A DNA stretch of 55,249 nt. Origin: Roseibium sp. TrichSKD4. GTDB taxonomy: Bacteria > Pseudomonadota > Alphaproteobacteria > Rhizobiales > Stappiaceae. Of this stretch, positions 8,777 through 33,973 are shown piece by piece (the stretch's first letter is position 1; the number at the start of each line of letters is the position of its first letter). The position numbers and the translations under genes were made by a program. Location: positions 398,377 through 453,625 of the forward strand of contig NZ_GL476319.1 in NCBI RefSeq assembly GCF_000148725.1, in the 5' to 3' direction. The notes under the pieces were generated by a model. It had not been told where the DNA came from and did no database searches. It saw only the letters and a program-made list of their open reading frames with translations.

Positions 8777-10222
8777 TCAGGCCAATACCTGCAAATCCAA
8801 TGGTTCGCGCAATCCCGCGACAGAACGCATTATGCGCCGCTCACCGGGTGTGCCGTCGTATCCCTGTTCAAGAGCCAAATCGAAAGTGCTCGCGTCCGTT
8901 AAAACGCAGGAGCATTCGGCTTTGTTGGCATCTTCCAATTTTGCGGCACGGTTCACAGCATCCCCAATAACGGTGAACTCCAATCGTTCACTGGACCCGA
9001 CCACGCCAACGGTCACAGGCCCGGCAGACACCGCCGTGCCGATCAGGAAGTCTCTCGGCCATCCCAGTTCCCTGAACCGGAGCCCTTCGGCTGCAATTGC
9101 AGTTACCAGTTCCTGAGCAGCAGAAAGCGCATCAGAAGCATAACTGGTCGAGGGATGGACGGCACCGAAGGTTGCCAGAATCCCGTCACCAAGGAACTTG
9201 TCGATCCGGCCACCATGCCCCTTGATGATGCCAATGGCCGTTTCCTGATACGCAGCCAGAATTGCCATCACTTTATCCGGAGGCAACTGGTCGGCTGTTC
9301 GTGTGAAGCCGCGAATGTCGACATAAAGGATCGCCGCCTCTCGAACCGTCCCCTCCCCGGCTTTCAGCGAACTTTCCGCATCCGTAATGGAGGCGGCAAC
9401 TTCCGGCGCGAAAAAGCGTTTCAAATCGGACGCGGCCGCGTGGTCACGAACGGAAGAGAAAAGCAACTCGCGGCCCCGAAAGAGCGCTGCAGATAATAGA
9501 ATTGTCACGGTGAGAATGACGACAGTCTTGTCTAACTCGGCCCCGATCAAAACGCTGTTTTCAGTAAGATATTCCACATAGTTTCGCGTGATATGCATGC
9601 CGTCCATATCTGACAGAACAGCATAGCCGACAAGGCCCAGCCACCCGGCAACGGCCACAAGCCCAGTGGTCAAGACAAACCGGGGATCGAACCGCAAAGC
9701 CCGAAGCCCAATGAAGATGAAAACATACATCAGGGTTGGTGCCTTGAGATAAAAGGTCGGCGGTTGGTTGTATTGAATATGGAAGGAGAAAATCAGCCCA
9801 ACCAATAACGCCATATCGACGCCAATGGACAGCAGGAGCAGCCATGTTGGCAGTTCAAATCGATATGACAGAACCAGTCGGACGACGGTAAAACCGAAAT
9901 AAATCGCAAGAGCAACCGGTACAAAATTAAACCCATCTGCTCCTTCAGCACGCGGCGCAAGCAGATAAAGCGTTGAAAACAGGCTGACAATTCCGAGTTG
10001 AACCCATGAAATCAGGCGCTCGGACGCATTTTCACGTTCGCGGATTTCGGCGCGCACACGTTGCGGAATACCGGTTTCCGGCGGTCCTCCGCGGAGAATA
10101 TAGGTAATCCATCCCGACCCATCCGACATACCTTGGCCAATGCTCCTTATCGTCGCTGCGTCCAACGCCCCGATTTTTCGCAGCGTCAAATAAGACCAAA
10201 GATCGGTGTTTTGGGTTCGCAA
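8777..10222 (-). CDS. Integral-membrane class III adenylate cyclase
   Basis: 481 residues. Residues ~70-250 hold about six transmembrane helices (ISWVQLGIVSLFSTLYLL, VPVALAIYFGFTVVRLVL, WLLLLSIGVDMALLVGLIF and others). Residues ~290-460 are the class III cyclase domain. Metal-binding Asp302 (YVDIRGFT) and Asp346 (DKFLGDGILATFG) are present, as are Lys342, an Asp in IGDAVNRAAKLE, and the Asn/Arg pair for catalysis. The Lys/Asp pair points to ATP rather than GTP, so the product is predicted to be cAMP. It lies 43 nt after the metallo-hydrolase gene as the last of four leftward genes, with a cyclic-nucleotide-binding protein two genes upstream. Confidence 0.88.
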   Translation of the reverse strand: MRTQNTDLWSYLTLRKIGALDAATIRSIGQGMSDGSGWITYILRGGPPETGIPQRVRAEIRERENASERLISWVQLGIVSLFSTLYLLAPRAEGADGFNFVPVALAIYFGFTVVRLVLSYRFELPTWLLLLSIGVDMALLVGLIFSFHIQYNQPPTFYLKAPTLMYVFIFIGLRALRFDPRFVLTTGLVAVAGWLGLVGYAVLSDMDGMHITRNYVEYLTENSVLIGAELDKTVVILTVTILLSAALFRGRELLFSSVRDHAAASDLKRFFAPEVAASITDAESSLKAGEGTVREAAILYVDIRGFTRTADQLPPDKVMAILAAYQETAIGIIKGHGGRIDKFLGDGILATFGAVHPSTSYASDALSAAQELVTAIAAEGLRFRELGWPRDFLIGTAVSAGPVTVGVVGSSERLEFTVIGDAVNRAAKLEDANKAECSCVLTDASTFDLALEQGYDGTPGERRIMRSVAGLREPLDLQVLA

Positions 10223-10265
10223 AACAAGGGCACTTGCCGATACGTGATCCGCCGTGATGCCGGGA

Positions 10266-11096
10266 TCACGGTTTGAGGATCAGTCCTTCTTTTGCAACGA
10301 GCGTGCCCGGATAAACATCCGCGGCAGCTGTTCCGATTTCGTCGAGTTCATCGTCAACACGGCGCGGATCGTGATGGAAAAGCACAGGCGTTTTCACCTC
10401 TGCTTCGCGCGCCAGCTCAACGGCTTTTTGCCAAGTTGAGTGGCCCCAGCCGATATAGGTTTCATATTCCTCGTCGGTGTACATGGCATCATAAATCATG
10501 ATGTCTGCCCCTTCGACGAAGCCGGGGAGCTTTGCATCTATCTCCACGTTTCCATGCTCATGGTCCGTGATGATGCAAATCACTTTACCTTGAAATTCAA
10601 TGCGGTAACCACAAGCTCCGCCCGGGTGGTTGAGACGCATTGTACGCACGGTCGCATCGCCACAAACCGGCAACTCGCTACCAACCTGATAATCACAGAA
10701 CGAGAGCGCTTTCAGCGATTTTGCGGCCAGAGGGAATACAGGCGGGGACATGATGCGATTGACCACGTCTGCCAGTTTCAGCTCAGGTTCTTCAAAGTGC
10801 CCCGCCCATGCATTGATCTGGGAATCGGGGTCAAAGGCTGGCCAAAAGAATGGCAACCCGCAAATGTGATCAAGATGCGTGTGGGTGAAGAGAATATCCA
10901 TGTCAGCGGATTGTTTTTTCTGACACAGCTCCATTCCAAGGTTACGAGCGCCAGAGCCACAATCGACCAGCATGCGCGCATTCCCTGCCCGAATTTCCAG
11001 ACAGCTGGTTTCTCCACCATAGCGAAGCGTGCCGGTGCCGGGCGTTGGAGTTGATCCACGCACACCCCAGAACCGTAGGGAAAACTCTTCAGACAC
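10266..11096 (-). CDS. Metallo-beta-lactamase-fold hydrolase, possible cyclic-nucleotide phosphodiesterase
   Basis: 276 residues. It opens with LRFWGVRGSTPTPG and YGGETSCLEI. The metal motif HTHLDH is at ~72-77, followed by a histidine in MRLNHPGG, Asp/His in IITDHEHG, and a late HHDP. This set is typical of RNase Z/PhnP-like phosphodiesterases. Class II cAMP phosphodiesterases have the same fold and HxHLDH motif. Because it lies between a cAMP-binding protein and an adenylate cyclase on one strand, cAMP or a related phosphodiester is a reasonable substrate, but that is inference. Confidence 0.8.
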   Translation of the reverse strand: MSEEFSLRFWGVRGSTPTPGTGTLRYGGETSCLEIRAGNARMLVDCGSGARNLGMELCQKKQSADMDILFTHTHLDHICGLPFFWPAFDPDSQINAWAGHFEEPELKLADVVNRIMSPPVFPLAAKSLKALSFCDYQVGSELPVCGDATVRTMRLNHPGGACGYRIEFQGKVICIITDHEHGNVEIDAKLPGFVEGADIMIYDAMYTDEEYETYIGWGHSTWQKAVELAREAEVKTPVLFHHDPRRVDDELDEIGTAAADVYPGTLVAKEGLILKP

Positions 11097-11174
11097 TCAG
11101 GTTCCTCGCTTCCTCGAAATGGAGATACTGCCAACCCAAATCATCCGGAAAAGGCGTTGACACTCTCCAAACTT

Positions 11175-11618
11175 CTATTGTTGCGCCGCAGCCAAATCCC
11201 GTGTTGTTCGCTCCAGTCGAAGCGCAAGTGTTCTCATCACCTCTAGTGATATATCGGGAAACTCGGTAAGCAATTTCAAGAAGTCGTCCTTAGAAACTGT
11301 CAAGACATCCATGTCCGAAGCCGCAGTCAGGCTGGCCGTTCGGGGCACATCACAAATAATTGCGATCTCGCCAACAATGTTGTTTTCCGCCACTTGAGCG
11401 ACAGTTTTTTCGCCATCCGGCGTGTTCACAAGAACGTCTGCCGTACCTTTGAGGATGATGAAGGCAGAATCTCCCGGTTCGCCCTGAATACACAGCCGCT
11501 CACCTTGCTGATACTCCGTTCGATCACTAATAAACGCCAGCAACCTCAGTTTTGTCTCGTCGATGCCCCGAAAGAGCGGCACGCGCCGCAAGGCTTCGAC
11601 TTCTGTTTCCAAACTCAT
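11175..11618 (-). CDS. Stand-alone cyclic-nucleotide-binding domain protein
   Basis: 147 residues, almost entirely one cNMP-binding domain. GEPGDSAFIILKGTADVLV and the phosphate-binding cassette VGEIAIICDVPRTASL (Gly83, Glu84, Arg93, Thr94, Ala95) are intact, so it should bind cAMP or cGMP. It has no helix-turn-helix after the C-helix, so it is not a Crp-type regulator. It ends with a short charged helix (LALRLERTTRDLAAAQQ). It lies between the unusual ABC exporter and the hydrolase and probably senses the product of the cyclase in the same operon. Its partner is unknown; the exporter is the obvious candidate. Confidence 0.85.
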   Translation of the reverse strand: MSLETEVEALRRVPLFRGIDETKLRLLAFISDRTEYQQGERLCIQGEPGDSAFIILKGTADVLVNTPDGEKTVAQVAENNIVGEIAIICDVPRTASLTAASDMDVLTVSKDDFLKLLTEFPDISLEVMRTLALRLERTTRDLAAAQQ

Positions 11619-11705
11619 TCCGACCTCCCGCTCAACGCGTCATTTGTGAAACAAACAAAATGCGGTTGGCTTTTTCATCCACAAAAGCACTTTAAAACCA
11701 ATCAC

Positions 11706-14300
11706 TCAAGCCTTCCGACGAGAGGTTGACGATATGCGCCCCTGATCCATCACGGCATGCGCTTCAAATTCCGCTGCAAGCTCTTCATTGGGAACACCGA
11801 ACACCAGGGTGCGTCCATCCAACAGCTCTCTCAAAGTGGCGCGAAGCTCACGGTCCTCATCATTGAGACCGGTCGCAATATCATCAAGGATGGTGATCCG
11901 GGCGTTTTTCAAAAGGCCGCGCACAAGCGCCAAGCGGCGACGTTGCCCCGCAGACAAGCGCGATCCGGCCACCCCAACATGATACCCGAACCCGGCATAC
12001 ATGATTGGCTCCCGCAGCCCCATTTCTTCCACCAAAGATCGGATCACCTGATCGATCCGCTGGCGGGCATCCCGGCGATCAACGCGCGCACGTCCGAACA
12101 GAAGGTTGTCTTCAATCGTAAGCGGCGGAAGATACGTCTCCGGATCAATACCGACAAAATTCTCGCTGTTGCCAACCACGCGTTGCTGGAACTGTTTGCG
12201 CGCCTCAATGACCTCAGCTTTCAATTCGTCGGTCATGATGCCCAAGCGGTGTCTGGCTGGAACCAACTTGAACGCAAGCCCGACAAGACGAGATTTATCG
12301 TTGTCACTGAGGCCCGGGCGTTGATTGCCGGATTTGGCGACCCGGACGATCCGATCAAACTCCGGCAAATCTTCCTGCGTGATAAACGAATAGGTTCCCA
12401 GCAAGCCACTATCGCCAGAGACGTTGGCAAAGAGTTCCACCATGGTTTCAGCAATCTTCAGGCCGATTTCTCGAAGCTTCAGATCAAGACCGGTCTCAGC
12501 AAGGAAGGCTTTGACTTCCGGCACATCAGGGATCTGCTCCATACCCATTTCAGGGTCTGTTGGAACGGCAAAAAACAGGTTCTCTGCCAAGGTTGCACTG
12601 GCATTGAAACTGTCGAGGTTCCAAAGCTCAACAAGATTGGCAAGGTTCGGATCATCTGCAATCCGTTTGGCCAAAGTGGAGCGCACTGACAAGATACGAT
12701 CTGCAAAGGCATCATCCATCGATGGATCGAAACGCGACTGCAGGCCAAGGCGGTAGATATCGGCATCCAGCCCCACTGCGGTCAGCAATGACAGGGCTTT
12801 CTGATCCAACTCAGCAGCATTCGTGACACCAGCTGCCGGATAATCTTCCCAACTTGCTGCAATGTCGTAAGTTGGGTTTTTGGTTTCCTTGGCTTCGCTC
12901 AACCGGCGCTGATAGTCACGCAAGTCTTCACCCTGCCGCTCAATGGTTTCAAGCGGACGGTGGCGCAGGCCATAGTAAAGGTTGTCCCGAATGGTGCCTG
13001 TCCAAACGTGGATTGAACCGCCGACAAATGCGACTTCACGCCCAAGGGTTGCCTCACTCAAGCGATCCAGATTTTGCCCGCCGATTTCCACCCGCCCCGA
13101 AGATGGGCTAACCAGTCCCGCAACTAGCTGCAGAACCTCTGCCCGTCCGGAGCCGTCTCCGCCAACGACTGCAACGTTGCTGTTCTCCGGGATTTTTAAA
13201 GAAGCATCAAAAACCTCCTGCCCCGCAGCTCCGCCGGAGAAGGTGACATTCTGGAAGACAATGTCGCCCTCCAGTTTGACGGTTTCATCACCTGTCAGGC
13301 GCTCGACGGGATAGATGTCAGCTGGATCAAAATTCTCAACAACGGTCTGGTACTTGACCGAGACATCAGCTGTCATCTGATAGTAAGCCAGCAGCTCTTT
13401 CCATGGGCCGGCCAGATCTTTATAGGCCGCGATCACCGCCAGAAGCGCGCCGATACTCAAATCCCCTTCGATCACCAGGTACCCGCCAATCAGGTAGAAG
13501 AAGAACGGCGTCAGCTGGTTCATGAAGTTATTGAGAAACTTAATGAAATACTTCCGGTTAAAGATCTCGTACCGGATCTTGAAGTTCTCATAGAGCCGGT
13601 CGGACAGGTCGGCGGAATGCCACGCGGATGCATCATTTGCGTGGATTTCGGGCACGCCCGTAATACTCTCCCCGACCTTGTCCGCAATCAAACGGACATT
13701 TTTGACCCGTCGCCGGGACAGCAAGACAACTTTCCGCTGAAGCTTGGGAATAATGTATGCTTGGATTGGGTATGAGCTGATGGCGGCAAGCCCAAGCAAC
13801 GGGTCTTGCATGAAGATGAAGCCGAGTTGCACAAACAGCATACCGCCCTGATAGGCGGGCAGCGCGAAGGCTTCTCCGATAAATCCGCCAACATCTTCCA
13901 CTTCCGATGTGATCATCGGAATGATCTCGCCAGAGCTTATTTTGCGGAAATGAGGGAGGCGAAAACGCAACACACGTTGAAAAAGTTCAAACCGCAACCG
14001 GCGCAACATGCGCTCGCCTAAACGTCCTTTATAAACGTTGATATAAAGCTTCAGTCCGTTCGAGACGACAACAAGTCCAAGAAATGAAAAGCATAGGAAA
14101 ATCAAATAGGAGATTTGATCGAATTCGAAAGACAAAATGCTCCTGGGGAAACCCTCCCCCTGCACAGCATCGTTGACGATCAGCTTCGGAAGCTCCAGCA
14201 GTATATACGTGACTGGATAGGATAATACAGTGACAAGTAAAATGAATATTTGCTGGCGCGAGCTGAACTTCCAAATAAAACTGAAGAGATTCTTTTCCAT
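11706..14300 (-). CDS. ABC-exporter-like membrane protein with degenerate, expanded nucleotide-binding domain
   Basis: 864 residues. Residues ~15-310 form an ABC type-I exporter membrane domain with about six helices, including GERMLRRLRFELFQRVLRF. The nucleotide-binding domain begins at ~345 but is unusual. Walker A is GGDGSGRA (380-387), lacking the Lys and Ser/Thr. The Q-loop lacks Gln (FVGGSIHVWTGTIRDNL). The signature is RLSAGQRRR (781-789). Walker B is ILDDIAT, with Asp in place of the catalytic Glu. No switch His is visible. About 300 residues of inserted sequence separate Walker A from the signature and repeat the segment TIRDNLYYG (436), TLAENLFFA (570), TIEDNLLFG (728). ATP hydrolysis may be lost. 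It heads the leftward operon and is divergent from the glycosyltransferase genes. Confidence 0.8.
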   Translation of the reverse strand: MEKNLFSFIWKFSSRQQIFILLVTVLSYPVTYILLELPKLIVNDAVQGEGFPRSILSFEFDQISYLIFLCFSFLGLVVVSNGLKLYINVYKGRLGERMLRRLRFELFQRVLRFRLPHFRKISSGEIIPMITSEVEDVGGFIGEAFALPAYQGGMLFVQLGFIFMQDPLLGLAAISSYPIQAYIIPKLQRKVVLLSRRRVKNVRLIADKVGESITGVPEIHANDASAWHSADLSDRLYENFKIRYEIFNRKYFIKFLNNFMNQLTPFFFYLIGGYLVIEGDLSIGALLAVIAAYKDLAGPWKELLAYYQMTADVSVKYQTVVENFDPADIYPVERLTGDETVKLEGDIVFQNVTFSGGAAGQEVFDASLKIPENSNVAVVGGDGSGRAEVLQLVAGLVSPSSGRVEIGGQNLDRLSEATLGREVAFVGGSIHVWTGTIRDNLYYGLRHRPLETIERQGEDLRDYQRRLSEAKETKNPTYDIAASWEDYPAAGVTNAAELDQKALSLLTAVGLDADIYRLGLQSRFDPSMDDAFADRILSVRSTLAKRIADDPNLANLVELWNLDSFNASATLAENLFFAVPTDPEMGMEQIPDVPEVKAFLAETGLDLKLREIGLKIAETMVELFANVSGDSGLLGTYSFITQEDLPEFDRIVRVAKSGNQRPGLSDNDKSRLVGLAFKLVPARHRLGIMTDELKAEVIEARKQFQQRVVGNSENFVGIDPETYLPPLTIEDNLLFGRARVDRRDARQRIDQVIRSLVEEMGLREPIMYAGFGYHVGVAGSRLSAGQRRRLALVRGLLKNARITILDDIATGLNDEDRELRATLRELLDGRTLVFGVPNEELAAEFEAHAVMDQGRISSTSRRKA

Positions 14301-14531
14301 TGCGCCATCCGAAATGAATACTGCCCGCCTGACCCTCGAGTCAGATCGGGAATATTACCCATTAAGTTGGAATGTGCCAGTCACGATTCTCCCAGCAGGT
14401 TTCATAAGCCATTGACGCACACTCACAGTTTTGAAAGGGTGGGCTTCTCAACAGACACAGAAAGACGTGACAACTTGGCGTTTGGCGGTGCATAAGGCCG
14501 CACACGTGCCAGGAAATCCAAAAAGCCAAGT
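14301..14531. promoter_or_regulatory. Divergent promoter region between ABC exporter and glycosyltransferase operons
   Basis: 231 bp without a plausible gene. Promoters for both arms of the cluster must lie here or just inside it. I looked for a Crp-type palindrome (TGTGA-N6-TCACA), because the cluster carries cAMP genes, and found only an unpaired TCACA half-site near 14424. Confidence 0.4.
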
Positions 14532-15752
14532 ATGCGTTCCAAATCGCCAAAGATCCTTATTTATAGTCATGACTCCTTCGGACTGGGACATCTACGCCGC
14601 TGCCGTGCAATCGCGCATTCCCTTGTCAAAGCCTACGGCGAGCTTTCTGTTCTGATCCTCTCGGGTTCGCCGATCATTGGCAGCTTCGAGTTTCGCTCCC
14701 GCGTAGATTTCGTCCGCATTCCAGGTGTCATCAAATTGCGGGACGGCGAATACACGCCGCTTTCCTTGCACCTGGACATTGAGCATACGCTGGAAATTCG
14801 CTCGTCCATCATCGAGCACACGGCGAAGGTGTTTGAACCGGATATATTTATCGTCGACAAGGAGCCCCTGGGGCTACGCGGCGAGGTTCTTGGCACTCTG
14901 GAAGCATTGAAGCACACCAAGACCAAGCTTGTACTCGGACTTCGGGATGTCATGGACGATCCCGAAATTCTGGCACAAGAGTGGGAACGCAAAGCTGTCA
15001 TGCCTGCGCTCAAGGATCTGTATGACGAGATTTGGGTTTATGGCCCTGAAGGCGTTTGCAATCCGGTTGAAGGCATAGACCTTCCCAATGGTGTTCCGGA
15101 GAAACTTCGCTATACCGGGTATTTGCGGCGACACTTGCCTGAAAACGCGGAAGGCGCAGCGTTGCCTGCTCCATTTGGGGAGCAACCCTACATTCTTGTA
15201 ACACCGGGTGGCGGCGGCGATGGCGTGGAAATGGTGGACTGGGTCATGCGTGCCTACGAAGCGCACAGTCGGCCATTGTTCCCTGCCCTGATCATTCTTG
15301 GTCCCTTCATGCCGGCAGCGGCCGTCACGCAGTTTACCGAACGCGCTGAACATCTGCGCGACGTTGAAATTCTGCGCTTTACGCCTCAAATCGAACCCTA
15401 CCTTGCCAGCGCCACGGCAATTGTCGGAATGGGCGGTTACAACACGTTCTGTGAGATCCTGTCCTTCGACAAGCCCACCTTGATGGTTCCGCGCATCGTT
15501 CCACGCCGCGAACAAGCCATACGGGCCGCCCGCGCTGAAGAGCGAGGTCTGTTGAAGGTTCTGCCGATCGACAAATACCCGGACCCACACTTGATGACTG
15601 AAGCGTTGGCGGAACTTCCCCATGCTCCATGCCCATCAGCAGCTGGTATCGAGAACCTCATGCTTGGTCTGGACCTCATTGGTGATCGCGTTGGCGAAAT
15701 CCTTGAAGAAAACCGTGCCGAAGACCTCCCCCGCCAGATTGTCAATTTCTAA
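14532..15752 (+). CDS. GT-B fold glycosyltransferase, GT28/MurG-like
   Basis: 406 residues. The N-terminus KILIYSHDSFGLGHLRRCRA has the Gly-His pair seen in UDP-sugar-dependent GT28-like enzymes. The C-terminal half has the nucleotide-sugar-binding pattern ILVTPGGGGDG and VGMGGYNTFCEILSFDKPTL. It is cytosolic with no membrane helix. The start ATG 14532 has only a weak, distant AGGAAA. It is first of five rightward genes (three further glycosyltransferases and a deacetylase-like protein), spaced 48, 15 and 4 nt apart and then overlapping by 4 nt. The sugar and acceptor cannot be told from sequence. Confidence 0.82.
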   Translation: MRSKSPKILIYSHDSFGLGHLRRCRAIAHSLVKAYGELSVLILSGSPIIGSFEFRSRVDFVRIPGVIKLRDGEYTPLSLHLDIEHTLEIRSSIIEHTAKVFEPDIFIVDKEPLGLRGEVLGTLEALKHTKTKLVLGLRDVMDDPEILAQEWERKAVMPALKDLYDEIWVYGPEGVCNPVEGIDLPNGVPEKLRYTGYLRRHLPENAEGAALPAPFGEQPYILVTPGGGGDGVEMVDWVMRAYEAHSRPLFPALIILGPFMPAAAVTQFTERAEHLRDVEILRFTPQIEPYLASATAIVGMGGYNTFCEILSFDKPTLMVPRIVPRREQAIRAARAEERGLLKVLPIDKYPDPHLMTEALAELPHAPCPSAAGIENLMLGLDLIGDRVGEILEENRAEDLPRQIVNF

Positions 15753-15800
15753 GTGAGCCGGATCGCCTGTCGAACCGCTCCTACTTAATCGAGACTTGCC

Positions 15801-17021
15801 ATGTCCCGCATCGCCGTCGTGGTGAAAGGCTATCCTCGCCTTTCCGAAACTTTTATTGCTCAGGAAATTCTCGGGCTGGAACAACGTGGCATTCCGATCC
15901 TGATCGTAGCCTTGCGCAAGCCTTATGATCCTTACATCCATGACCTGCATCGGAAAATCTCTGCAGACGTCATGTATCTGCCGGAATATGTGAAAGATGA
16001 CCCGGCCCGAGTGGCGCGAGCGAAGCGCTGGGCCGAAGAACAGCCCACTTATGAAAAAGCCAAAGCCCTGTTCGACAAGGACTTTGCTCAAGAAAGCAAT
16101 GCAGGCCGACAACGACGTTGGGCACAGGGTTGCGTCTTTGCTCATGAGCTTCCTGAAGACATTTCGTGGATCCACACCCACTATTTGCACACCCCCTGCT
16201 CGGTCTCGCGGTACGCTGCACATCTGGCCGGTAAGAGTTGGTCCTTTTCCGCCCACGCCAAAGACATTTGGACCAGCGAAGAATGGGACCTGCGGACAAA
16301 GCTAGATGATGCCGCTTGGGGCGTGACTTGCACCAAAGTCAATGTCGATCATCTGAAGTCCCTCTCCCAAAACCCGGAGAAGGTCGAGCTGGTGTATCAT
16401 GGCCTCGATTTTTCCGGCTTCCCGGACCCCGCCGACAATCCTCCCCGCCGAGATGGAACAGCAGATCCGGTTCGGCTGGTTTCAGTCGGGCGCGCGGTAG
16501 AAAAAAAGGGCTATGATGATCTTCTTGCAGCGCTCAAAAGCCTGCCTGAAACGCTGAACTGGCATTTCACCCATATTGGCGGCGGCGAACTGTCAGACAC
16601 ACTCAAGGCTCAGGCCGATGCGCTTGGGCTTGGTGAGCGGATCACCTGGCGCGGTGCCCAGCCCCGTGAGGAGGTCATCAAGACCTGTCAAATGTCCGAC
16701 CTCTTCGTCCTACCATCCAAGCTGGCGAAATCCGGCGATCGCGATGGTCTGCCAAACGTTTTGATGGAAGCGCAATCGATGGGCATTTGCTGCTTGTCCA
16801 CCTCGGTGTCCGCCATCCCGGAACTCATAATCTCCGGAGAAACCGGAATGCTCGTTCCGCCCGCAGACCCAAAAGCACTTGGCGCGGCCCTTCAAAAACT
16901 CATTGAAGCCCCAGAGGAACGAAACAAGATGGGCAAGTCTGCCGCGCATCACGTCCGCCATCACTTTGCCAGCGCGCCGGGTCTCGACCAACTGACCGAA
17001 AAATTCAAAAAGGTGCTCTGA
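15801..17021 (+). CDS. Glycosyltransferase family 4 protein
   Basis: 406 residues. The opening IAVVVKGYPRLSETFIAQEI is typical of GT4 colanic-acid-type transferases. The middle has SFSAHAKDIW and VTCTKVNVDHL. The C-terminal domain has LVSVGRAVEKKGYDDLLAAL and the retaining-GT4 signature region DRDGLPNVLMEAQSMG with its EX7E-like acidic residues. It is a cytosolic GT-B retaining enzyme using a nucleotide sugar. It is second in the five-gene run. Confidence 0.87.
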   Translation: MSRIAVVVKGYPRLSETFIAQEILGLEQRGIPILIVALRKPYDPYIHDLHRKISADVMYLPEYVKDDPARVARAKRWAEEQPTYEKAKALFDKDFAQESNAGRQRRWAQGCVFAHELPEDISWIHTHYLHTPCSVSRYAAHLAGKSWSFSAHAKDIWTSEEWDLRTKLDDAAWGVTCTKVNVDHLKSLSQNPEKVELVYHGLDFSGFPDPADNPPRRDGTADPVRLVSVGRAVEKKGYDDLLAALKSLPETLNWHFTHIGGGELSDTLKAQADALGLGERITWRGAQPREEVIKTCQMSDLFVLPSKLAKSGDRDGLPNVLMEAQSMGICCLSTSVSAIPELIISGETGMLVPPADPKALGAALQKLIEAPEERNKMGKSAAHHVRHHFASAPGLDQLTEKFKKVL

Positions 17022-17036
17022 CAGACGGACTAGCCC

Positions 17037-18149
17037 ATGAAAGTAGCCTTCACATCACCGATGAAACCTCTTGATCATCCGGTTCCATCCGGGGATCGGA
17101 CCATGGGGCGGTTGTTTGTTCAGGCACTGAAAGCAGGTGGGCATGAGGTCGACATCGTCTCAAACTTTCGCAGCTGGACAAAAACCGCAAGTGAAGAGGT
17201 TCAGCGCGCCATTCGCGACGACGCATGGCGAGAAGCTGACCGCATTGCCGAGAGCTGGGAGCAATCCGGCAGCAAGCCCGATGTCTTTTTGACCTATCAT
17301 CTTTATCACAAAGCCCCAGACTGGATTGGGCCACGATTGGCTGAGCGGTTCGACCTTCCTTACGCGATTTTAGAGGCAAGCCGCGCTCCCAAACGCCAGA
17401 CCGGTGACTGGGCCTTTGGCTTTGCGGAAGCGGACAAGGCATTGCAGCGAGCTGATATGGTCGGGGCACTTCACAATGCTGATGCTGGTTGCCTTAGCCC
17501 AGTTTTGAACGACGACCACCTTTCGATCATGTTGCCGTTCATAGACACCACTCCTTTCGAAGCCGCTACAAAAACGCGGTCAGCTGAGACACCCCTCAAG
17601 CTGCTCACTGTTGGCATGATGCGGCCCGGGGACAAGACAATATCCTATGAGGTTCTAGCAGCTGCCCTGAACCGCATTGCTGATTTGCCCTGGCAGTTGA
17701 CCATAATTGGCGACGGCGAAACCAGAGAGCACGTTCTCTCCCTTTTCCCGCAAGATCGGATCACCTGGCTCGGAGCCCTGCCGCCAGAAGACTTGCCCGC
17801 GCAGTATGCAGCCCACGACCTTTTCGTCTGGCCTGCCATTCGCGAGGCATTTGGCCTTGTGTTTTTGGAAGCGCAGGCAAGCGGTTTGGGCGTTATCGCA
17901 GGTGATACATTTGGGGTGCCCGATATCGTACAGAACGAAAAGTCCGGCCTTTTGTCAAAAGAAGGCGATGTCGAGACTTTCGCCCAAAACTTGAGGCGTG
18001 CGATTGAAAACCCGGACCTCTGCCGTGCACTGGGCAAATCAGCTCTTGACCATGTAAACGCCAATCATACGTTGAAAGCTGGCGCAGACAGACTGACCCG
18101 CTTTCTAACTGCCGCCATTGCCAACCATTCTCGCCGGACACCTTCCTAA
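17037..18149 (+). CDS. Glycosyltransferase family 4 protein
   Basis: 370 residues. The N-terminus MKVAFTSPMKPLDHPVPSGD carries the glycine/aspartate donor loop of GT-B enzymes. The C-terminal half has LTVGMMRPGDKTISYEVLAA and FVWPAIREAFGLVFLEAQAS, with the acidic pair E-(x7)-E of retaining GT4 enzymes (EAFGLVFLE). It starts 15 nt after the previous gene. It is a different branch of GT4 from its neighbour, which suggests that the operon adds more than one kind of sugar. Confidence 0.85.
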   Translation: MKVAFTSPMKPLDHPVPSGDRTMGRLFVQALKAGGHEVDIVSNFRSWTKTASEEVQRAIRDDAWREADRIAESWEQSGSKPDVFLTYHLYHKAPDWIGPRLAERFDLPYAILEASRAPKRQTGDWAFGFAEADKALQRADMVGALHNADAGCLSPVLNDDHLSIMLPFIDTTPFEAATKTRSAETPLKLLTVGMMRPGDKTISYEVLAAALNRIADLPWQLTIIGDGETREHVLSLFPQDRITWLGALPPEDLPAQYAAHDLFVWPAIREAFGLVFLEAQASGLGVIAGDTFGVPDIVQNEKSGLLSKEGDVETFAQNLRRAIENPDLCRALGKSALDHVNANHTLKAGADRLTRFLTAAIANHSRRTPS

Positions 18150-18153
18150 ACCC

Positions 18154-19308
18154 ATGCCCTTCAACGTTTTCATTCATGTGCAGCACCTTCTGGGAACCGG
18201 GCATGCAGTGCGCGCGGCCAGCATTGGCAAGGCCTTGATGGCAAAGGGCGCAAAAGTGACATTGGCGACCGGCAACACATTACCGCCGACACTCGACACC
18301 GGCGATCTGACCATCGTCAATTTGCCGGCAGTGCGCAGCCCGGATGCTAGCTTCAAGCGCCTTGTCACTTTAGACAATGAAGATTTTGACGAAGCTTGGA
18401 AAAAGACCCGCGTTGAATCAACACTTGAAGCCTTTCAGAGCGATCGGTTCGACCTCCTCCTGACGGAAACTTATCCATTTGGACGTCGGCACTTCGAGTT
18501 TGAATTGAGCGAATTGCTCAAAGCTGCCAAGACCTGCTCCCATCCACCGATGATCGCAACGTCAATCCGCGATATTCTGGTTCGTAAGCAAGAACTCTGG
18601 AAAGAGGAATGGATGGCCGATCAGGCCCTTACCTTCTACGACCGCATTCTCATTCATTCCGATCCGGATTTCGTGCAACTGGCAGACAGTTTTCCATTCG
18701 CGGACAAGGTGGAGCATTTGGTTCGTTATACCGGCTATGTCGGCGGTGGGGATCGTCCCGAACCGCCGGATGGTGTGGGTGTCGACGAAGTGATTATTTC
18801 TTGCGGTGGTGGCGCGGTTGCAGATGCGCTGCTGTCTGCAGCGCTCGAAGCGCGCCCTCTTTCCCGGCGCGCAGAAGACACCCTTTGGCGCATTCTTGTG
18901 GGCCACGATGTGTCCGATAACGCCTTTGAAATTCTGAAAAAAAGCGCTTCCAGCGGCGTGATCGTCGAACGCGCACGAAAGGATTTTCCAGGCCTGTTGA
19001 AACGTGCGCGATTGTCCGTCAGTCAGGCCGGCTACAACACCGTTCTCGATATTCTGAAAGCGGGGATTCCGGCTGTTTTTGTTCCCTTTGCGCAAATCAA
19101 CGAAACGGAACAAGCCCAACGAGCTGAAGCGCTCGCCGCCCACGGTCGTGCTGTTGTAACAGCTGAAAAAGACCTGACGCCGGAGCGATTGGCAGCAAGT
19201 ATTGATGATGCCCTTGCCCTGCCCCGTTCAAACCACCAGGTTCAGCTGGGCGGCGCGAAACAAAGCGCTGAAATCCTGATCAACGACCTGAAAGAGCGCG
19301 CAGCATGA
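18154..19308 (+). CDS. GT-B fold glycosyltransferase, GT28/MurG-like
   Basis: 384 residues from ATG 18154 (4 nt after the previous stop). The N-terminus FNVFIHVQHLLGTGHAVRAA has the GxGH loop of GT28-like enzymes. The C-terminal half has ISCGGGAVADALLSAALEAR and SQAGYNTVLDILKAGIPAVF, the MurG-like donor-binding site. It resembles the first glycosyltransferase of the run more than the two GT4 enzymes. An in-frame ATG at 18118 would overlap the previous gene by 32 nt and adds no conserved sequence, so I prefer 18154. Its stop overlaps the next start. Confidence 0.84.
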   Translation: MPFNVFIHVQHLLGTGHAVRAASIGKALMAKGAKVTLATGNTLPPTLDTGDLTIVNLPAVRSPDASFKRLVTLDNEDFDEAWKKTRVESTLEAFQSDRFDLLLTETYPFGRRHFEFELSELLKAAKTCSHPPMIATSIRDILVRKQELWKEEWMADQALTFYDRILIHSDPDFVQLADSFPFADKVEHLVRYTGYVGGGDRPEPPDGVGVDEVIISCGGGAVADALLSAALEARPLSRRAEDTLWRILVGHDVSDNAFEILKKSASSGVIVERARKDFPGLLKRARLSVSQAGYNTVLDILKAGIPAVFVPFAQINETEQAQRAEALAAHGRAVVTAEKDLTPERLAASIDDALALPRSNHQVQLGGAKQSAEILINDLKERAA

Positions 19309-20060
19309 ATGCGGACCTCACCCGGTTTCGACGAGACTTGACTGACCATCTTGACTGGTTTGCCGAGCGCGGCAAGAAGGTTCGCTTCTGGTGGCGTGAT
19401 GATGATGCGATTGAGCCGACGGACGACCTCGACCGCCTGCTGTTGATCGCCAACACCCATAAGGTGGACGTGGCTCTTGCCGTCATCCCGAAGAATGCGA
19501 CAGAAGCATTGGCCACCCACCTTGCAAATGAACCTCACGCTGTGGTGCTGCAACACGGCTGGCAGCACAAGAACTTTCAACGCAAGGATCTTGGCGAAAA
19601 GGCAGCCGAACTCGGCACGCGCCGAGACCCGGACGAGCTTTTGGGCCAGCTGGCACAAGGGCGTGATCGTCTAAAATCGCTGTTTGGCGATAAGTTTATC
19701 CCTGCAATGGTTCCGCCATGGAACCGGATCGCGCCCGAAATCTCTCGCCGCCTGCCCTCCATTGGCCTCACAGGCCTTTCCACCTTTACATGGCACAATT
19801 TTCCTCGGGCTGGACAGGTGCAGTCTCATGTTGACATGATCAAATGGAAAAAAGACAGGCGCTTTATCGGCTGGGAGAGCGCCCGCCTGCGCCTCGAACT
19901 CCAATTGTGTCGGCGCCGGACAAATCCATCAGAGCCACTCGGCATCCTGTCCCATCACCTTTCCCATGACGAAGGATGCTTCGAGTTCCTTCAAGAACTC
20001 CTCACCATTGCAGCTCATCACGACGGCGCTAAGTGGCCCCGAATAGAAAACCTATTCTAA
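19305..20060 (+). CDS. Polysaccharide deacetylase-like (NodB-homology) protein
   Basis: 251 residues; the start overlaps the previous stop (ATGA). The NodB-type motifs are recognisable but divergent: FWWRDDDA (motif 1 Asp pair), VVLQHGWQHKN (H-x3-H metal ligands), FIPAMVPPWNRI (motif 3 with Pro-Pro-Trp-Asn), and ILSHHLSHD near the end. Enzymes of this fold remove N-acetyl groups from glycans. No signal peptide is visible, so it would act in the cytosol, perhaps on a lipid-linked intermediate. It is the last gene of the glycan operon and is followed by a hairpin at 20106-20127. Confidence 0.78.
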   Translation: MNADLTRFRRDLTDHLDWFAERGKKVRFWWRDDDAIEPTDDLDRLLLIANTHKVDVALAVIPKNATEALATHLANEPHAVVLQHGWQHKNFQRKDLGEKAAELGTRRDPDELLGQLAQGRDRLKSLFGDKFIPAMVPPWNRIAPEISRRLPSIGLTGLSTFTWHNFPRAGQVQSHVDMIKWKKDRRFIGWESARLRLELQLCRRRTNPSEPLGILSHHLSHDEGCFEFLQELLTIAAHHDGAKWPRIENLF

Positions 20061-22544: not shown

Positions 22545-22545
22545 C

Positions 22546-27706: not shown

Positions 27707-28894
27707 TCACTTATAGGGATCGGCAGCGTCGCGCAAACCGTCGCCAAGGAAGTTGAACGCCAGAACCACAATAATGATCGGGATAACCGGTGCCATGAGC
27801 CAAGGATAGACCGTCACCACCGAGATATTCTGCGCTTCATTGAGCAAAACACCCCAGGAAACGGACGGGCGGCGAAGCCCGAGGTTCAGGAACGACAGCG
27901 CCGTTTCCCCCAAAATCATGGAGGGAATGGACAGCGTGGCAGACGCGATCACGTGACTGGAGAAGCCTGGAAGCAGATGGCGGGTAATCACCCGCTTTGG
28001 CTTTGCCCCCATCAAAACGGCAGCCTTCGCGTATTCTTCTTCGCGCAAGGACAACAGCTTGGAGCGCACGGCGCGGGCCAGTCCTGGCCAGTCCAGCAAC
28101 CCGAGAATGATCGTCAAGCCGAAATAAATCCAAACCGGGCTCCACGTCACCGGCAAGGCAGCAGAAAGCGCCATCCAGAGCGGCAACTCGGGCAGCGAGC
28201 GCATGATCTCGATCACACGCTGGATCAGGTTATCGGCAATACCGCCGAAATACCCAGCAATCCCACCAAAAAAGAGCCCCAGAACGATAGAAATCGTCAC
28301 CCCGACGAGGCCAACGGTGAGTGAGAGACGCGCTCCATAGACCAGACCTGAGAACATGTCCCGCCCGAGCCTGTCAGTGCCGAGCAGAAACAGCGTTCCG
28401 CCTTCCGCCGGGCAGAACAAATGAAAGCTCCCGTCCCAAAGGCCCCAGAATTGGTACTCATCGCCAAAACAGAAATACCGGATCGGTTGAACATCGGTTC
28501 GGTCTTCAGAAAAGACCCACTTCATGCTGTTCAGATCGACCTCAGATTTCATGCCATAGACAAATGGGCCGACGAACTGCCCCTCGTGGAAGAGATGCAC
28601 ACTTTGCGGGGGCGCATAAAGGTGTTGGCTGTCGCGCGTGTTGGCCGTGTAAGGAGCGATTACTTCTGCAAACGGCACACACAAGTAAAACAGGATGAGA
28701 ACCACTCCCGACCAGACCGCAAGCTTGTGGCGTTTGAACTTCCACCACATGATCTGCCATTGAGAGGCCTGATAGAAGCGCTCCTGCTCCGGTGAGAGCT
28801 CTTCTGTTGTTGCCGGGTTAAACGGCGTCGGGTCTACATAATGCTCGACCTCATGCGCCGCTGCTTCGGGCTTTTTATCCAGATGATCGGTCAT
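27707..28894 (-). CDS. Peptide/oligosaccharide ABC transporter permease, OppC type
   Basis: 395 residues. A long cytoplasmic N-terminus (~70 residues, QASQWQIMWWKFKRHKLAVW before the first helix) is followed by a periplasmic loop of ~90 residues. The DppC/OppC domain (LGTDRLGRDMFSGLVYGARL, EAA loop EEYAKAAVLMGAKPKRVITR) ends with FLGDGLRDAADPYK. It overlaps the other permease gene by 4 nt and is last of four transport genes. The long extra N-terminal loop is found in a subgroup of the family. Confidence 0.9.
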   Translation of the reverse strand: MTDHLDKKPEAAAHEVEHYVDPTPFNPATTEELSPEQERFYQASQWQIMWWKFKRHKLAVWSGVVLILFYLCVPFAEVIAPYTANTRDSQHLYAPPQSVHLFHEGQFVGPFVYGMKSEVDLNSMKWVFSEDRTDVQPIRYFCFGDEYQFWGLWDGSFHLFCPAEGGTLFLLGTDRLGRDMFSGLVYGARLSLTVGLVGVTISIVLGLFFGGIAGYFGGIADNLIQRVIEIMRSLPELPLWMALSAALPVTWSPVWIYFGLTIILGLLDWPGLARAVRSKLLSLREEEYAKAAVLMGAKPKRVITRHLLPGFSSHVIASATLSIPSMILGETALSFLNLGLRRPSVSWGVLLNEAQNISVVTVYPWLMAPVIPIIIVVLAFNFLGDGLRDAADPYK

Positions 28895-29916
28895 TGGGAT
28901 GCCCTCCCCCCGAGACGAATTCGTGGGTCAAGCACCGCGAGCAAGAGGTCTGAAATCAACATGCCAATCAGGGTCAAAATGGCCACAAACAGAAGTATGA
29001 ACCCGGACAAGAACTGGTCCTGGCTTTGAAGCGCTGACAAGAGCACAGGCCCAACCGTTGGAAGGTTGAGCACTACAGATACAATCACCGAGCCCGACAC
29101 CATGGATGGGATGAGATTGCCAATATCGGCGATGAACGGGTTCAACGCCATGCGCAGCGGATATTTCACCAGCAACTGGCCTTCCCGCAAACCTTTGGCT
29201 CGCCCCGTCGTCACATATTGCTTGTGCAGCTCGTCAAGCAGGTTGGCGCGCAGCCGCCGGATCATAGCCGCTGTGCCGGATGTTCCAATCACAATGGTCG
29301 GAACGATCAAGTGCGCCAAAACCGAGAGTGCTTTATCCACGCTCCATGGTTGGTCAATGTACTCAGGCGCCATAAGACCGCCGACAGACAGGCCGAACCA
29401 GCGATTGAACAGATAAAGCAAGATCAAACCGAGCAGGAAGTTTGGTGTTGCCAACCCGATATAGCCAAGGAAAGTAAACCCGTAGTCCCCCCAGGAATAT
29501 TGGCGGGTCGCAGAGTAAATCCCGATTGGAAAGGACAGCACGTAGACGAACAATATGGTGGCAAAATTCAGAAAAACGGTCAGTGGCAGCGTTGGGCCGA
29601 CAACTTCAGCAACCGGCTTGTCGAACTCAAACGACCACCCCCAATTGCCCTGAAGCAGGCCGTCAAATCCGTGCGGCCCCGGCCAGGCCCCGATCCAGAT
29701 AAGGTAGCGCTCAAAAAACGGTCGATCCAACGCGAATTCCTTACGAAGGAACTCCAACTTGGCAACAGAGGATTGTTCACCAGAAGACTTCAGCGCAGCA
29801 ATCTGGTTGGTAATGTAATCGCCCGCTGGCAATTCGATAATAAAGAATGTCAGGAAACTGATCACGAACAAGGTCGGGATCATCAGCAATATTCGCCGGA
29901 AAATGTAAAACAGCAC
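28891..29916 (-). CDS. Peptide/oligosaccharide ABC transporter permease, OppB type
   Basis: 341 residues. It opens MLFYIFRRILLMIPTLFVIS, the OppB/DppB hallmark, and has the EAA loop QYVTTGRAKGLREGQLLVKY. About six transmembrane helices. It pairs with the OppC-type permease, whose gene overlaps its end. A 116-bp gap with a hairpin separates it from the binding-protein gene upstream. Confidence 0.91.
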   Translation of the reverse strand: MLFYIFRRILLMIPTLFVISFLTFFIIELPAGDYITNQIAALKSSGEQSSVAKLEFLRKEFALDRPFFERYLIWIGAWPGPHGFDGLLQGNWGWSFEFDKPVAEVVGPTLPLTVFLNFATILFVYVLSFPIGIYSATRQYSWGDYGFTFLGYIGLATPNFLLGLILLYLFNRWFGLSVGGLMAPEYIDQPWSVDKALSVLAHLIVPTIVIGTSGTAAMIRRLRANLLDELHKQYVTTGRAKGLREGQLLVKYPLRMALNPFIADIGNLIPSMVSGSVIVSVVLNLPTVGPVLLSALQSQDQFLSGFILLFVAILTLIGMLISDLLLAVLDPRIRLGGRASQ

Positions 29917-29992
29917 CCGTTTTGCCCCTGTCGCGTTCCGCGCAACCAGACCCTTTGCCTGGCCCCCATTATTATCTCATTTCAATTGGCGA

Positions 29993-30009
29993 AGCGGAGA
30001 AGCTCCGCT
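29993..30009 (-). terminator. Hairpin between binding-protein and permease genes
   Basis: AGCGGAG (29993-29999) pairs with CTCCGCT (30003-30009) around a 3-nt loop and no U-run follows. Its place just after the binding-protein gene parallels the hairpin in the liv operon. It probably stabilises the upstream mRNA. Confidence 0.4.
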
Positions 30010-30032
30010 GCACCATTTTCGTTTTCGGCTGA

Positions 30033-31922
30033 TTATTGATCAGCGAGGAAGAACTCGTCCATGCGGTGAACGCCGAACTGCGCGCCCGGATCCCAGCCAT
30101 AGAAAGTATCTGTCGGCACGTTTTTCACGCCATTGACCACCACCGGCTGACGAACCGCCGACACCAGGCCGATCTGGATCGTTTCCTCAGCATGGATTTC
30201 CAGGGTTTCGGTCCAGATGTCTTCCCGCTCCTTTTTAGATCGGGAAGAAAGCCAAGCCTCATAGAGTTCAGTTAGACGGATTGCGGGCTCCCAATCGGGC
30301 TTTTCGCCGCCCTCTCCGTTGGTCTCATAATAGTCACCCCACGCAAACCAGTTGAGGCGCTCGCCCAAAACCGGAGCGTAATCAACTGGCGGCATTTCGG
30401 ACGTCGGAATGCCATTTTCAAACCCGGTCCAGACGGACATGACCAGATCCCCGGTGATCGCACGTTCCCTCAAAATGTCCCGCTGGCTCGGTTTGACGAA
30501 CAGCTTGATGCCGATCTCCTTCCAGGTCTCGGCCACCAGTTCAAGAGCATCTGCCTGGGTCTGGCTTTCACCTGCTGTTTCAATGATGATTTCAAGCGGC
30601 CGCCCATCTGGCAGCATCCGCACACCGTCTCCTCGGCGCTCAGTCAAGCCAAGCTCGTCCAGCAGGGCATTGGCCTTGTCCGGATCATACTCAGCCCACT
30701 TGGTCACATATTCAGGCATGAACAGCGGACTTGCTGACAGCACTGTGTCATTGCCAGCCCGGCCCAACCCGAAATACAGCACCCGGTTGACCATTTGCCG
30801 GTCGATGCCGAGCGACAGGGCATGGCGGAACCGCTTGTCACGGTTGAGCTCCCGCCAGACCGGATCTTTGACTGTGAGGTTCGGCAGGATCGAGATTTCC
30901 GATCCCTTGGTGTTGAGCCAGAGGTTTGTTGTGTACCCCTGCTGCGCTTCTCCTTGCTTCAACACCGTAATGTCAGCAAAGGACAGGTTGCGGGCCTGAA
31001 GGTGAGTTTCGCCTGCCTGCGTCTTGGCTGGGATCAACTTGCCATCTGCAACCGTCATGATGATTTGATCGATATAGGGCAGTTGCTGACCTGCCTTATC
31101 AACGCGGTGGTAATAGGGGTTGCGGTGCAACTTGAACCGGCGGTCGCTGTCATCAGCCTTGCGTATCCAAGGCTGAAGGCTTGGCAGCTCCACATTCCGC
31201 GCGTTGTACAAATCATCTTTTTTGTTGTGAAGCGGCGCCCAGCTGCGTGCCTTCACCTTGGCGGCCTGTTCTGTGATGAAGTCCGGATCGCCATATTTTT
31301 CGTGGAACTGCTTCAGATAATGTGCCGGACGATAGATGAACGGCGGGCGCGACTTCGCAAGTTCTGGCAGAAACAGCGGGTTCGGATCATCCCACGTGTA
31401 ACGAACGGTAGTCTCGTCCAGAACTTCAAATTTTGGAGGTTTACCATTGGCCAAAAGAAACGGTGGCAAGCCTACCGGTGTCAGGCTTTCATTGGACGCA
31501 ACATCCTCAAAATAGTACCGAAGGTCCTCCGCGCCAAACGGATGGCCGTCAGACCATTTATGGCCAGCGCGCGTCTTCAGCGTGAAGATGCGCCCATCTT
31601 CTATTTCCACGCCTTCCAGAATATCTGGAACCAACTCCAGTTTTTCATTGTAACCAACAAGGCGCGCATACCCCCAAACATTGATCAATCGCACATCCTT
31701 GGAACGGCCAATCAAGGTGCTCAACGTACCACCCGGTTTGCCGATTTCGCGACCGGAGGCCGTAAGATCCACGATTAAAGGTTCAGACGGTACGCGTTCC
31801 GCAACCGGGGGCAGCGAACTGTCCAGCCCCGGTGTTTCCTTCAACTCCAAAGCCGAGGCGGACATCAATCCAAGCGAGGTTGCAAAAACGCCTGCAAACC
31901 CCAGGCTTTTCCAAAACGTCAT
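30033..31922 (-). CDS. ABC transporter substrate-binding protein, family 5 (oligopeptide/oligosaccharide type)
   Basis: 629 residues, long for the family (usually ~500-550). It has a signal peptide (SLGFAGVFATSLGLMSASAL). The SBP_bac_5 pattern includes YARLVGYNEKLELVPDILEG, FTLKTRAGHKWSDGHPFGAE and RDKRFRHALSLGIDRQMVNR. The start ATG overlaps the ATPase stop by 4 nt. Relatives of this length bind oligosaccharides (for example alpha-galactosides in rhizobia) as well as peptides, so the ligand is open. Confidence 0.88.
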   Translation of the reverse strand: MTFWKSLGFAGVFATSLGLMSASALELKETPGLDSSLPPVAERVPSEPLIVDLTASGREIGKPGGTLSTLIGRSKDVRLINVWGYARLVGYNEKLELVPDILEGVEIEDGRIFTLKTRAGHKWSDGHPFGAEDLRYYFEDVASNESLTPVGLPPFLLANGKPPKFEVLDETTVRYTWDDPNPLFLPELAKSRPPFIYRPAHYLKQFHEKYGDPDFITEQAAKVKARSWAPLHNKKDDLYNARNVELPSLQPWIRKADDSDRRFKLHRNPYYHRVDKAGQQLPYIDQIIMTVADGKLIPAKTQAGETHLQARNLSFADITVLKQGEAQQGYTTNLWLNTKGSEISILPNLTVKDPVWRELNRDKRFRHALSLGIDRQMVNRVLYFGLGRAGNDTVLSASPLFMPEYVTKWAEYDPDKANALLDELGLTERRGDGVRMLPDGRPLEIIIETAGESQTQADALELVAETWKEIGIKLFVKPSQRDILRERAITGDLVMSVWTGFENGIPTSEMPPVDYAPVLGERLNWFAWGDYYETNGEGGEKPDWEPAIRLTELYEAWLSSRSKKEREDIWTETLEIHAEETIQIGLVSAVRQPVVVNGVKNVPTDTFYGWDPGAQFGVHRMDEFFLADQ

Positions 31923-33805: not shown

Positions 33806-33973
33806 GTTATCGTCCCTCCCTGCTTCCGCATAGTGCACACTAAGCCTCTAGCGCGCAGGAAAGACAACCATATTTACAGTCATCACTGCAATGCGGACTT
33901 CGTAAAAGTTTCAATAGGCTTTGAGAATAGTATGATTATGAGCCAGCCTATGGTTCAAAAACGGCGTGAGTTG

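Follow-up and report, generated by a model that had tools for sequence, protein, structure and literature searches.

Sinorhizobium meliloti is protected against phazolicin by an uncharacterised surface polysaccharide named PPP. Travin et al. (2023, PMC10128002) reported that its production requires nine genes in the interval from smb21252 to smb21271 and that mutants in smb21252 and smb21265 had a minimal inhibitory concentration (MIC) of phazolicin of 0.18 versus 1.47 µg/mL. Insertions in cyaA, which encodes an adenylate cyclase, were strongly depleted in their screen, and the cyaA mutant had an MIC of 0.74. Seven of the nine PPP genes are also reported to rise under attack by Myxococcus. Here, a locus of Roseibium sp. 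TrichSKD4 is compared with this system. It lies in a stretch of 55,249 nucleotides, referred to as the window (contig NZ_GL476319.1, positions 398,377 to 453,625 of the forward strand; Table 1), in which one arm of genes encodes a protein with the fold of an ATP-binding cassette (ABC) exporter (EXP), a small cyclic-nucleotide-binding protein (CNB), a hydrolase of the metallo-beta-lactamase fold (MBL), and a membrane-bound class III cyclase (CYC), while the divergent arm encodes four glycosyltransferases (GT28a, GT4a, GT4b, and GT28b) and a deacetylase-like protein (DEAC); an Opp-type importer and a second cyclase (HCYC) lie beyond. We put at roughly 57% the probability that a conserved alphaproteobacterial module is represented in the window, one that assembles and translocates a PPP-type glycan and is gated by the cyclic-nucleotide-binding subunit.

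Several described systems share a part of this composition. HetC of Nostoc PCC 7120 is likewise an ABC exporter with a cyclic-nucleotide-binding domain that is needed in vivo, and its description (PMC10986499) gives it an N-terminal binding domain that bound ppGpp, together with a C39 peptidase and an ATPase residue that is essential; in the Roseibium-type module, by contrast, CNB is separate or C-terminal, and there is neither a peptidase domain nor a Walker A motif. The lipid-linked glycan flippases of the MsbA/PglK type share their membrane domain and exporter fold with EXP (TIGR02203), but EXP lies far under the family cut-off, has lost Walker A, and has a repeated helical insert and a CNB partner. 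TIGR03896 (NHLM bacteriocin-type cNMP-binding transport-associated protein) also ties such a binding domain to transport, but the match reaches 34 bits, under the cut-off of 161, and no leader-peptide system was seen among the module genes. Two relatives of the solute-binding protein (SBP) of the importer among solved structures, the pectin-binding SPH1118 and an alpha-galactoside-binding protein, have roles in sugar uptake or chemotaxis, whereas the SBP here is tied to glycan synthesis genes. Finally, the S. meliloti locus that gene order places at PPP has, within about 22 kb, homologues of the importer and of the full set of nine genes, the cyclase being of another type, but differs in gene order and has FkbM and UDP-sugar dehydrogenase genes; in the accessible part of PMC10128002, the term “cyclic nucleotide” does not occur, and no exporter without an ATP site is mentioned. 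We found no open-licence paper that describes the EXP–CNB pair or an exporter without an ATP site together with CNB and a glycan and importer set. The parts belong to known superfamilies. An initial annotation of this DNA, made from the sequence alone, knew of no named system of this kind; this is only partly right, since gene order places an S. meliloti counterpart in the PPP locus.

Comparison between genomes reveals the recurrence of a set of predicted genes consisting of the four glycosyltransferases, DEAC, the Opp-type importer, CNB, and EXP without a canonical ATP site. A scan of a species-representative genome collection gave 60 loci, of which 58 were taken as orthologues and two (L059 and L060) were removed because their ABC matches were put down to chance. 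These close loci are mostly from Roseibium/Labrenzia, Stappia, Pannonibacter, and Pseudovibrio, with Acuticoccus and a few metagenome-assembled genomes (MAGs) in addition. All nine genes are within 10 kb of EXP in 47 of the 58; taken singly, EXP is present in 58, CNB, GT28a, and GT4a in 57 each, GT4b and GT28b in 56 each, DEAC in 55, MBL in 54, and CYC in 48. The gaps in L015 and L025 are due to the ends of the stretches, and the CNB that seems to be missing from L057 is fused to EXP. A distant set of 80 regions (78 from 131 hits in the class and two from hits in the phylum, the other class hits being counted by position) was also mapped; many of these regions are cut at contig ends or at a 20-kb limit, and the partner counts are lower bounds. 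The persistence of all nine genes, which the initial annotation proposed as a sign of a single system, holds for most of the close loci but not for the distant regions, where CYC and MBL are scarce.

At the level of whole genomes, a profile of the EXP insert found matches in 131 of the 385 class genomes sampled, about one third, and in 31 of 398 genomes of a phylum sample that overlaps the class; GT28a was found in 127 of the 385 (E 1e-60) and SBP in 122 (E 1e-150). These searches scored the best 3 to 6 candidates per genome, and misses are possible; the class is that of the R. sediminis genome, which by established taxonomy is Alphaproteobacteria. EXP and GT28a were both present in 124 of the 385 genomes, EXP only in 7, GT28a only in 3, and neither in 251. 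With SBP included, these being the three genes for which co-inheritance was measured, all three were found in 118 genomes, one or two in 18, none in 249, and any in 136. Besides the genomes with EXP only, which are discussed below, the partial sets comprise one genome (G109) that lacks only GT28a, six that lack only SBP, and, without EXP, GT28a in G063, G108, and G361 and SBP alone in G102 and G175.

The claim that EXP, CNB, and the glycosyltransferases form one system is therefore upheld by the co-occurrence of EXP and GT28a in 124 genomes against 10 with only one of them, and the gene package is almost certainly a single functional module. Nor are the two arms rarely adjacent, which the initial annotation had named as a refuting outcome: class-wide, EXP and GT28a lie within 20 kb on one contig in 84 of the 124 genomes. 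Among the 118 complete genomes, the set forms one stretch in 56; glycosyltransferases and importer are together with EXP away or on another contig in 27, EXP and glycosyltransferases are together with the importer away in 24, EXP is with the importer in 4, and none are near one another in 7 (split draft contigs inflate all these classes except the first).

General genome synteny was considered as the cause of this recurrence and rejected for the distant loci since the flanking genes are almost never kept there (SDR in 2 of the 80 regions, ModB in 1, and ModA, STM3941, and the CoA-transferase in 0). Matches to ModC do occur in 34 of the 80, with about 30% identity where shown, and are read as probable generic ABC ATPases. 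Among the close loci, plain synteny does contribute: the SDR gene beside CYC (window 7880-8647) is kept in 50 of 58. The same gene set is held in at least five differing gene orders. Chance or an annotation artefact was likewise rejected on the basis of synteny and co-inheritance.

EXP itself matches Pfam ABC_membrane over residues 61-290 (E 6e-17), while its match to ABC_tran is split. The nucleotide-binding motifs were counted in the 143 distinct orthologues from mapped loci with more than 90% profile coverage. The Walker A motif G..G.GK[ST] occurs in none of them, the window sequence having GGDGSGRA; the position of its Lys is occupied by Arg in 84, and Lys followed by Ser/Thr stands at the aligned positions in just 1, where the full motif is absent. 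The catalytic Glu of Walker B is found at the aligned column in 57 and is missing in 86 (DD in the window), and the His of the H-loop is at the aligned column in 27 and missing in 116, including the window sequence, which has no His; an LSxGQ-like stretch is partly retained. Between the first half of the nucleotide domain and the signature, the insert holds extra copies of a “TIxDNLxFG” helical segment, the three pairs of which gave HHalign probabilities of 90, 98, and 73 (the last of these across just 18 columns). Conservation is highest in the membrane domain, and most of the invariant residues are concentrated in that half of the protein. A Pfam scan found no C39 peptidase domain in EXP, and its best NCBIfam match among those listed was TIGR02203, with 155 bits against a cut-off of 602. 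EXP thus lacks the ATP site by which an ABC exporter is recognised but has the membrane domain, and its role in transport is a prediction. The family offers a naturally occurring group of proteins that have the ABC fold but no ATP site. In the pSymB record of S. meliloti 1021 (L229), EXP is read as two overlapping frames, which may be an error of the record, as it is a single frame in strain 2011. In L138 (from G248), it is also split into two frames; GT28a was not found in this genome, and the other glycosyltransferase genes are kept, as if the module were decaying.

The near-constant companion of EXP is CNB, in which Pfam cNMP_binding (E 4e-20) is the sole domain and which also matches the regulatory domain of PKA (1e-21). 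Its phosphate-binding cassette reads GEIAIICDVPRTA; of 130 distinct stand-alone homologues, 123 retain the Glu of the cassette and 125 show the motif with Arg. Their median length is 154 residues, and only two of the 130 reach 210 residues or more as open reading frames, which leaves most of them no room for a DNA-binding domain. The initial annotation was therefore right to see no Crp-type DNA-binding output here: CNB, with its 147 residues, cNMP_binding alone, and no C-terminal DNA-binding domain, was rejected as a Crp-type transcription regulator. In all of 57 close loci, CNB is either the neighbour of EXP (55) or fused to it (2); L025 is excluded because the contig ends inside CNB. The same holds for 78 of 80 distant regions (68 adjacent, 10 fused; the exceptions are L196 and L200). 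Since one locus was counted in both sets, as L054 and as L124, this amounts to 134 of 136 distinct mapped loci.

The fused forms make up 11 of the 92 rows of the exporter tree and fall on one side of one branch, as expected of one evolutionary event. Fused genes were also found in L057 and on Azospirillum and Sulfitobacter plasmids, on which they are beside glycosyltransferase genes. In the 10 sampled genomes with a fused EXP–CNB, no glycosyltransferase gene is near EXP, yet GT28a and SBP occur together elsewhere in all 10; no other observation hints as strongly at a link that is functional and goes beyond an operon effect. The cassette of the fused CNB looks intact in L061 (from the same genome as L125), L184, L186, L188, and L189, and those of L185 and L187 are not readable as intact or altered. 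CNB is likely to be the regulatory subunit of EXP, as predicted from these associations. The initial annotation proposed that cyclic AMP (cAMP) acts at the level of proteins. This proposal gains indirect support from the fusion in one clade, from the cassette Glu, and from the lack of a Crp or Clr box in the promoter region, with the reservation that the fused clade represents a single change. Direct control of EXP by a cyclic nucleotide would, in our judgement, have slightly better than even odds. As to the boxes, the 231-bp divergent region and 55 homologous upstream stretches, each of 260 bp, contained no match to the Clr, strict Crp, or relaxed Crp pattern; the power of this search is low because fewer than one box was expected by chance (0.3, 0, and 0.4, respectively) and divergent boxes would escape it.

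The cyclase domain of CYC, which is of class III (E 3.5e-8), follows an N-terminal half that was judged hydrophobic by eye; the start of CYC is uncertain, as homology often begins near residue 32. Among 51 orthologues of CYC, Lys replaces the transition-state Arg in all 45 that are readable at this position, whereas the Asn is kept; at the first metal site, a stringent pattern is matched by only 10 of the 51 and a more permissive one by most of those listed. HCYC keeps both the transition-state Asn and Arg in 19 of 19 sequences and is found in 16 of 20 importer-side regions. A cyclase domain is encoded in 48 of 57 close exporter regions versus 11 of 80 distant ones, and MBL in 54 of 57 versus 3 of 80. 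The MBL metal motif HxHxDH is present in all 59 homologues (57 distinct), and a homologue is found in the S. meliloti locus too; in the MAG behind L054, homologues of MBL and CYC lie beyond the importer (L220). MBL was considered as a cAMP phosphodiesterase, a role that is unsupported, its NF041851 score being 44.8 against a cut-off of 400; the possible “destroyer of cAMP” of the initial annotation is thus without support. Nor is its set of maker, reader, and destroyer the core: CYC and MBL are lineage-specific, and it is the CNB sensor, not a closed cAMP circuit, that belongs to the core. HCYC and CYC are predicted to be lineage-specific accessory inputs.

The nine open reading frames were verified, and the gap between the arms is exactly 231 bp. 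The initial annotation, which correctly placed all of these, overlooked the rest of the set: the conserved genes continue past an insertion sequence (IS) element with the Opp-type importer and HCYC (27707-35872) and, up to position 37745, a Methyltransf_17 gene. In the S. meliloti records, an Opp-type importer and a cyclase adjoin the same genes. SBP was present in all 41 genomes and records searched (38 genomes from the close set of 58, plus 3 plasmid records), which had all been preselected as carriers of EXP. Its top match among solved structures is an uncharacterised oligopeptide-type protein, followed by the pectin-binding SPH1118 and the alpha-galactoside-binding protein. Homologues of the Methyltransf_17 gene recur in the distant exporter regions (41 of 80), against 1 of 58 for the close exporter loci and 4 of 20 for the importer-side regions.

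The rightward arm contains two GT28-like and two GT4 glycosyltransferases according to a domain search. The true start of GT28b is probably the ATG at 18154, since homology often begins at residues 10-15. DEAC has no Pfam match and no match in the PDB at E 1; its family has motifs of the RDDD type in 108 of 108 members (95 distinct sequences), HGxxHxN in 101, and PPWNR in 107, which we take to be typical of polysaccharide deacetylases, and homologues carry this annotation. In an NCBIfam scan of the nine proteins, no match (for EXP and GT4b, among the matches listed) was above its cut-off. Neither Wzx/Wzy, an initiating transferase, nor Wzm/Wzt was found among the module proteins scanned, and no flippase or polymerase was found in the nine proteins or in the annotated clusters of Azospirillum, Sulfitobacter, and Rhizobium. 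A histidine phosphatase family is encoded in 52 of the 80 distant regions (L158:3898-4500 and homologues). In Azospirillum and Sulfitobacter, a histidine phosphatase gene lies between GT4b and GT28b; there is none between these genes in the window.

The connection to PPP comes from S. meliloti. In record CP050512 (L230), which bears no SMb locus tags, counterparts of all nine genes are found within about 22 kb, the cyclase being matched by domain only and GT28b being split, although it is whole in strain 2011; the GT4b homologue scores 411. The order of the genes for a PIG-L deacetylase, an aminotransferase, and a sulfotransferase matches that of SMb21247-21249 in Zou et al. (2017). Counting on from these puts the GT4b homologue at SMb21252. 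If the LacI gene is SMb21272, counting back would make GT28a SMb21265. Gene order therefore suggests that the counterpart is in smb21252-smb21271, and the product of the module is probably a PPP-type glycan.

A mechanism may be envisaged from these parts. The glycosyltransferases would assemble a short or repeating glycan in the cytoplasm, and the membrane domain of EXP would move it, or a lipid-linked form of it, across the inner membrane; the importer would recover fragments of the glycan. CNB would bind a cyclic nucleotide, most likely cAMP, and open or license EXP, so that cAMP would reach the transport step directly and not only via transcription. HCYC and CYC would be the inputs in particular lineages, while elsewhere the general cAMP pool would serve. 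A more daring version, which we hold to be rather unlikely, is that EXP gave up ATP-driven pumping and that CNB with cAMP opens it as a conduit for the glycan, much as such domains gate ion channels, the repeated helical segments replacing the ATP switch as the coupling element. If cAMP does act in this way, there would be a protein-level route from cAMP to a cell-surface glycan, a connection that is usually explained via Crp-type transcription, and this would account for the partial loss of protection against an antimicrobial peptide in the adenylate cyclase mutant of S. meliloti.

A number of observations weigh against a cAMP-gated PPP module. The match to the SMb tags is one of gene order only. 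The cyaA effect may be indirect: Travin et al. (PMC10128002) point to the regulation of polysaccharide genes by cAMP and rank the change in MIC as small. PPP may need genes outside the module, from the neighbouring S. meliloti cluster, in which a sugar transferase gene and a gene of the O-antigen-ligase type are found. The absence of an ATP site in EXP leaves the driving force for transport unexplained. EXP occurs without both GT28a and SBP in six genomes (G082, G207, G248, G293, G304, and G321). The sampled genomes are related, and Fisher values overstate their independence; the pattern of presence and absence is relied on for this reason. The fusion of EXP with CNB counts as one event only, and the cassette of the fused CNB is altered in at least L057, L058, L197, L198, and L199, which means that sensing is not universal. 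In the nearest precedent, HetC, the domain bound ppGpp and not cAMP (PMC10986499).

This last finding is one of those that fit a different reading, in which there is one glycan module but cAMP regulates it by transcription only, via Crp or Clr, and CNB senses something else or is structural. In S. meliloti, Clr activates genes of the neighbouring nodP2-smb21248 polysaccharide cluster (Zou et al. 2017), and cAMP is cited by Travin et al. (PMC10128002) as a regulator of genes potentially in PPP. However, no smb2126x, smb2127x, or smb21252 appears in the main text of Zou et al. (2017), the cassette of CNB is canonical in most orthologues, and the search for boxes, weak as it is, was negative; we consider this reading unlikely. 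Somewhat less likely still is that EXP is not a transporter at all but a degenerate ABC fold that serves as a scaffold for the glycosyltransferases, with CNB tuning the assembly of the complex. The loss of Walker A in 143 of 143 orthologues, together with a membrane domain that is the best-conserved part, would suit a scaffold, and docking might take place on the repeated helical segments. The clustering of the invariant residues in the membrane half, however, is expected of a conduit. In addition, something must cross the membrane, since neither flippase nor polymerase was found in the cluster; S. meliloti has such genes next door. It is very improbable that a glycan operon and a cyclic-nucleotide-regulated exporter of another substrate, unrelated in function, stand side by side by shared ancestry alone. 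Such an arrangement might be read into the genomes where EXP is apart from GT28a (10 with at least 20 kb between them on the same contig and 30 with the two on different contigs, out of 124), but unlinked genomes keep both sets, including all 10 with a fused exporter, and the set is preserved through its rearrangements. The reading of the window as a PPP-type glycan module gated by CNB remains the one that we prefer.

Table 1. Features of the module in the window (positions count from the first nucleotide of the window).
Feature	Position	Strand	Description
CYC	8777..10222	-	Membrane class III cyclase, accessory; Pfam Guanylate_cyc
MBL-fold hydrolase	10266..11096	-	Accessory; Pfam Lactamase_B_2
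CNB	11175..11618	-	147 aa, stand-alone cyclic-nucleotide-binding protein; Pfam cNMP_binding
EXP	11706..14300	-	864-aa membrane protein of ABC-exporter fold, degenerate nucleotide-binding domain, ~270-aa repeat insert
Divergent promoter region	14301..14531		231 bp
GT28a	14532..15752	+	GT28-like glycosyltransferase, core; Pfam Glyco_tran_28_C; weak MJ1255/VC2487 similarity
GT4a	15801..17021	+	EpsE-like GT4 glycosyltransferase, core; Pfam and NCBIfam, under EpsE cut-off
GT4b	17037..18149	+	GT4 glycosyltransferase, core; Pfam
GT28b	18118..19308	+	MurG-like glycosyltransferase, core; Pfam
DEAC	19305..20060	+	Polysaccharide-deacetylase-like, core; conserved motifs, no Pfam match
Importer permease 2	27707..28894	-	Pfam
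Importer permease 1	28891..29916	-	Pfam
Importer SBP	30033..31922	-	Family 5, possibly for oligosaccharides
Importer ATPase	31919..33838	-	Double nucleotide-binding domain, Opp type; Pfam
HCYC	33974..35872	-	HAMP adenylate/guanylate cyclase, accessory; Pfam
Methyltransf_17 methyltransferase	37131..37745	-	S-adenosylmethionine-dependent; Pfam; recurrent partner in part of the family

Between the nine genes and the importer set lie a transposase gene, a gene for a GGDEF protein, a PMSR gene, and genes for a nitrile hydratase. The transposase is of the IS type (DUF772/DDE; window 21089-22438) and, like the dCache-HAMP-GGDEF diguanylate cyclase (22525-24099), sits between the two halves of the module. 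A gene for a mechanosensitive channel and one for a UDP-sugar dehydrogenase are found inside or beside the module in Sulfitobacter (L226) and S. meliloti (L230), and a gene of the endonuclease/exonuclease/phosphatase family in 30 of the 80 distant regions (L142:12623-13549 and homologues). The nitrile hydratase genes encode alpha and beta subunits (25201-26483), and a homologue of the alpha subunit accompanies EXP in 20 of the 58 close loci and the importer in 6 of the 20 regions on that side, while none of the 80 distant regions has one.

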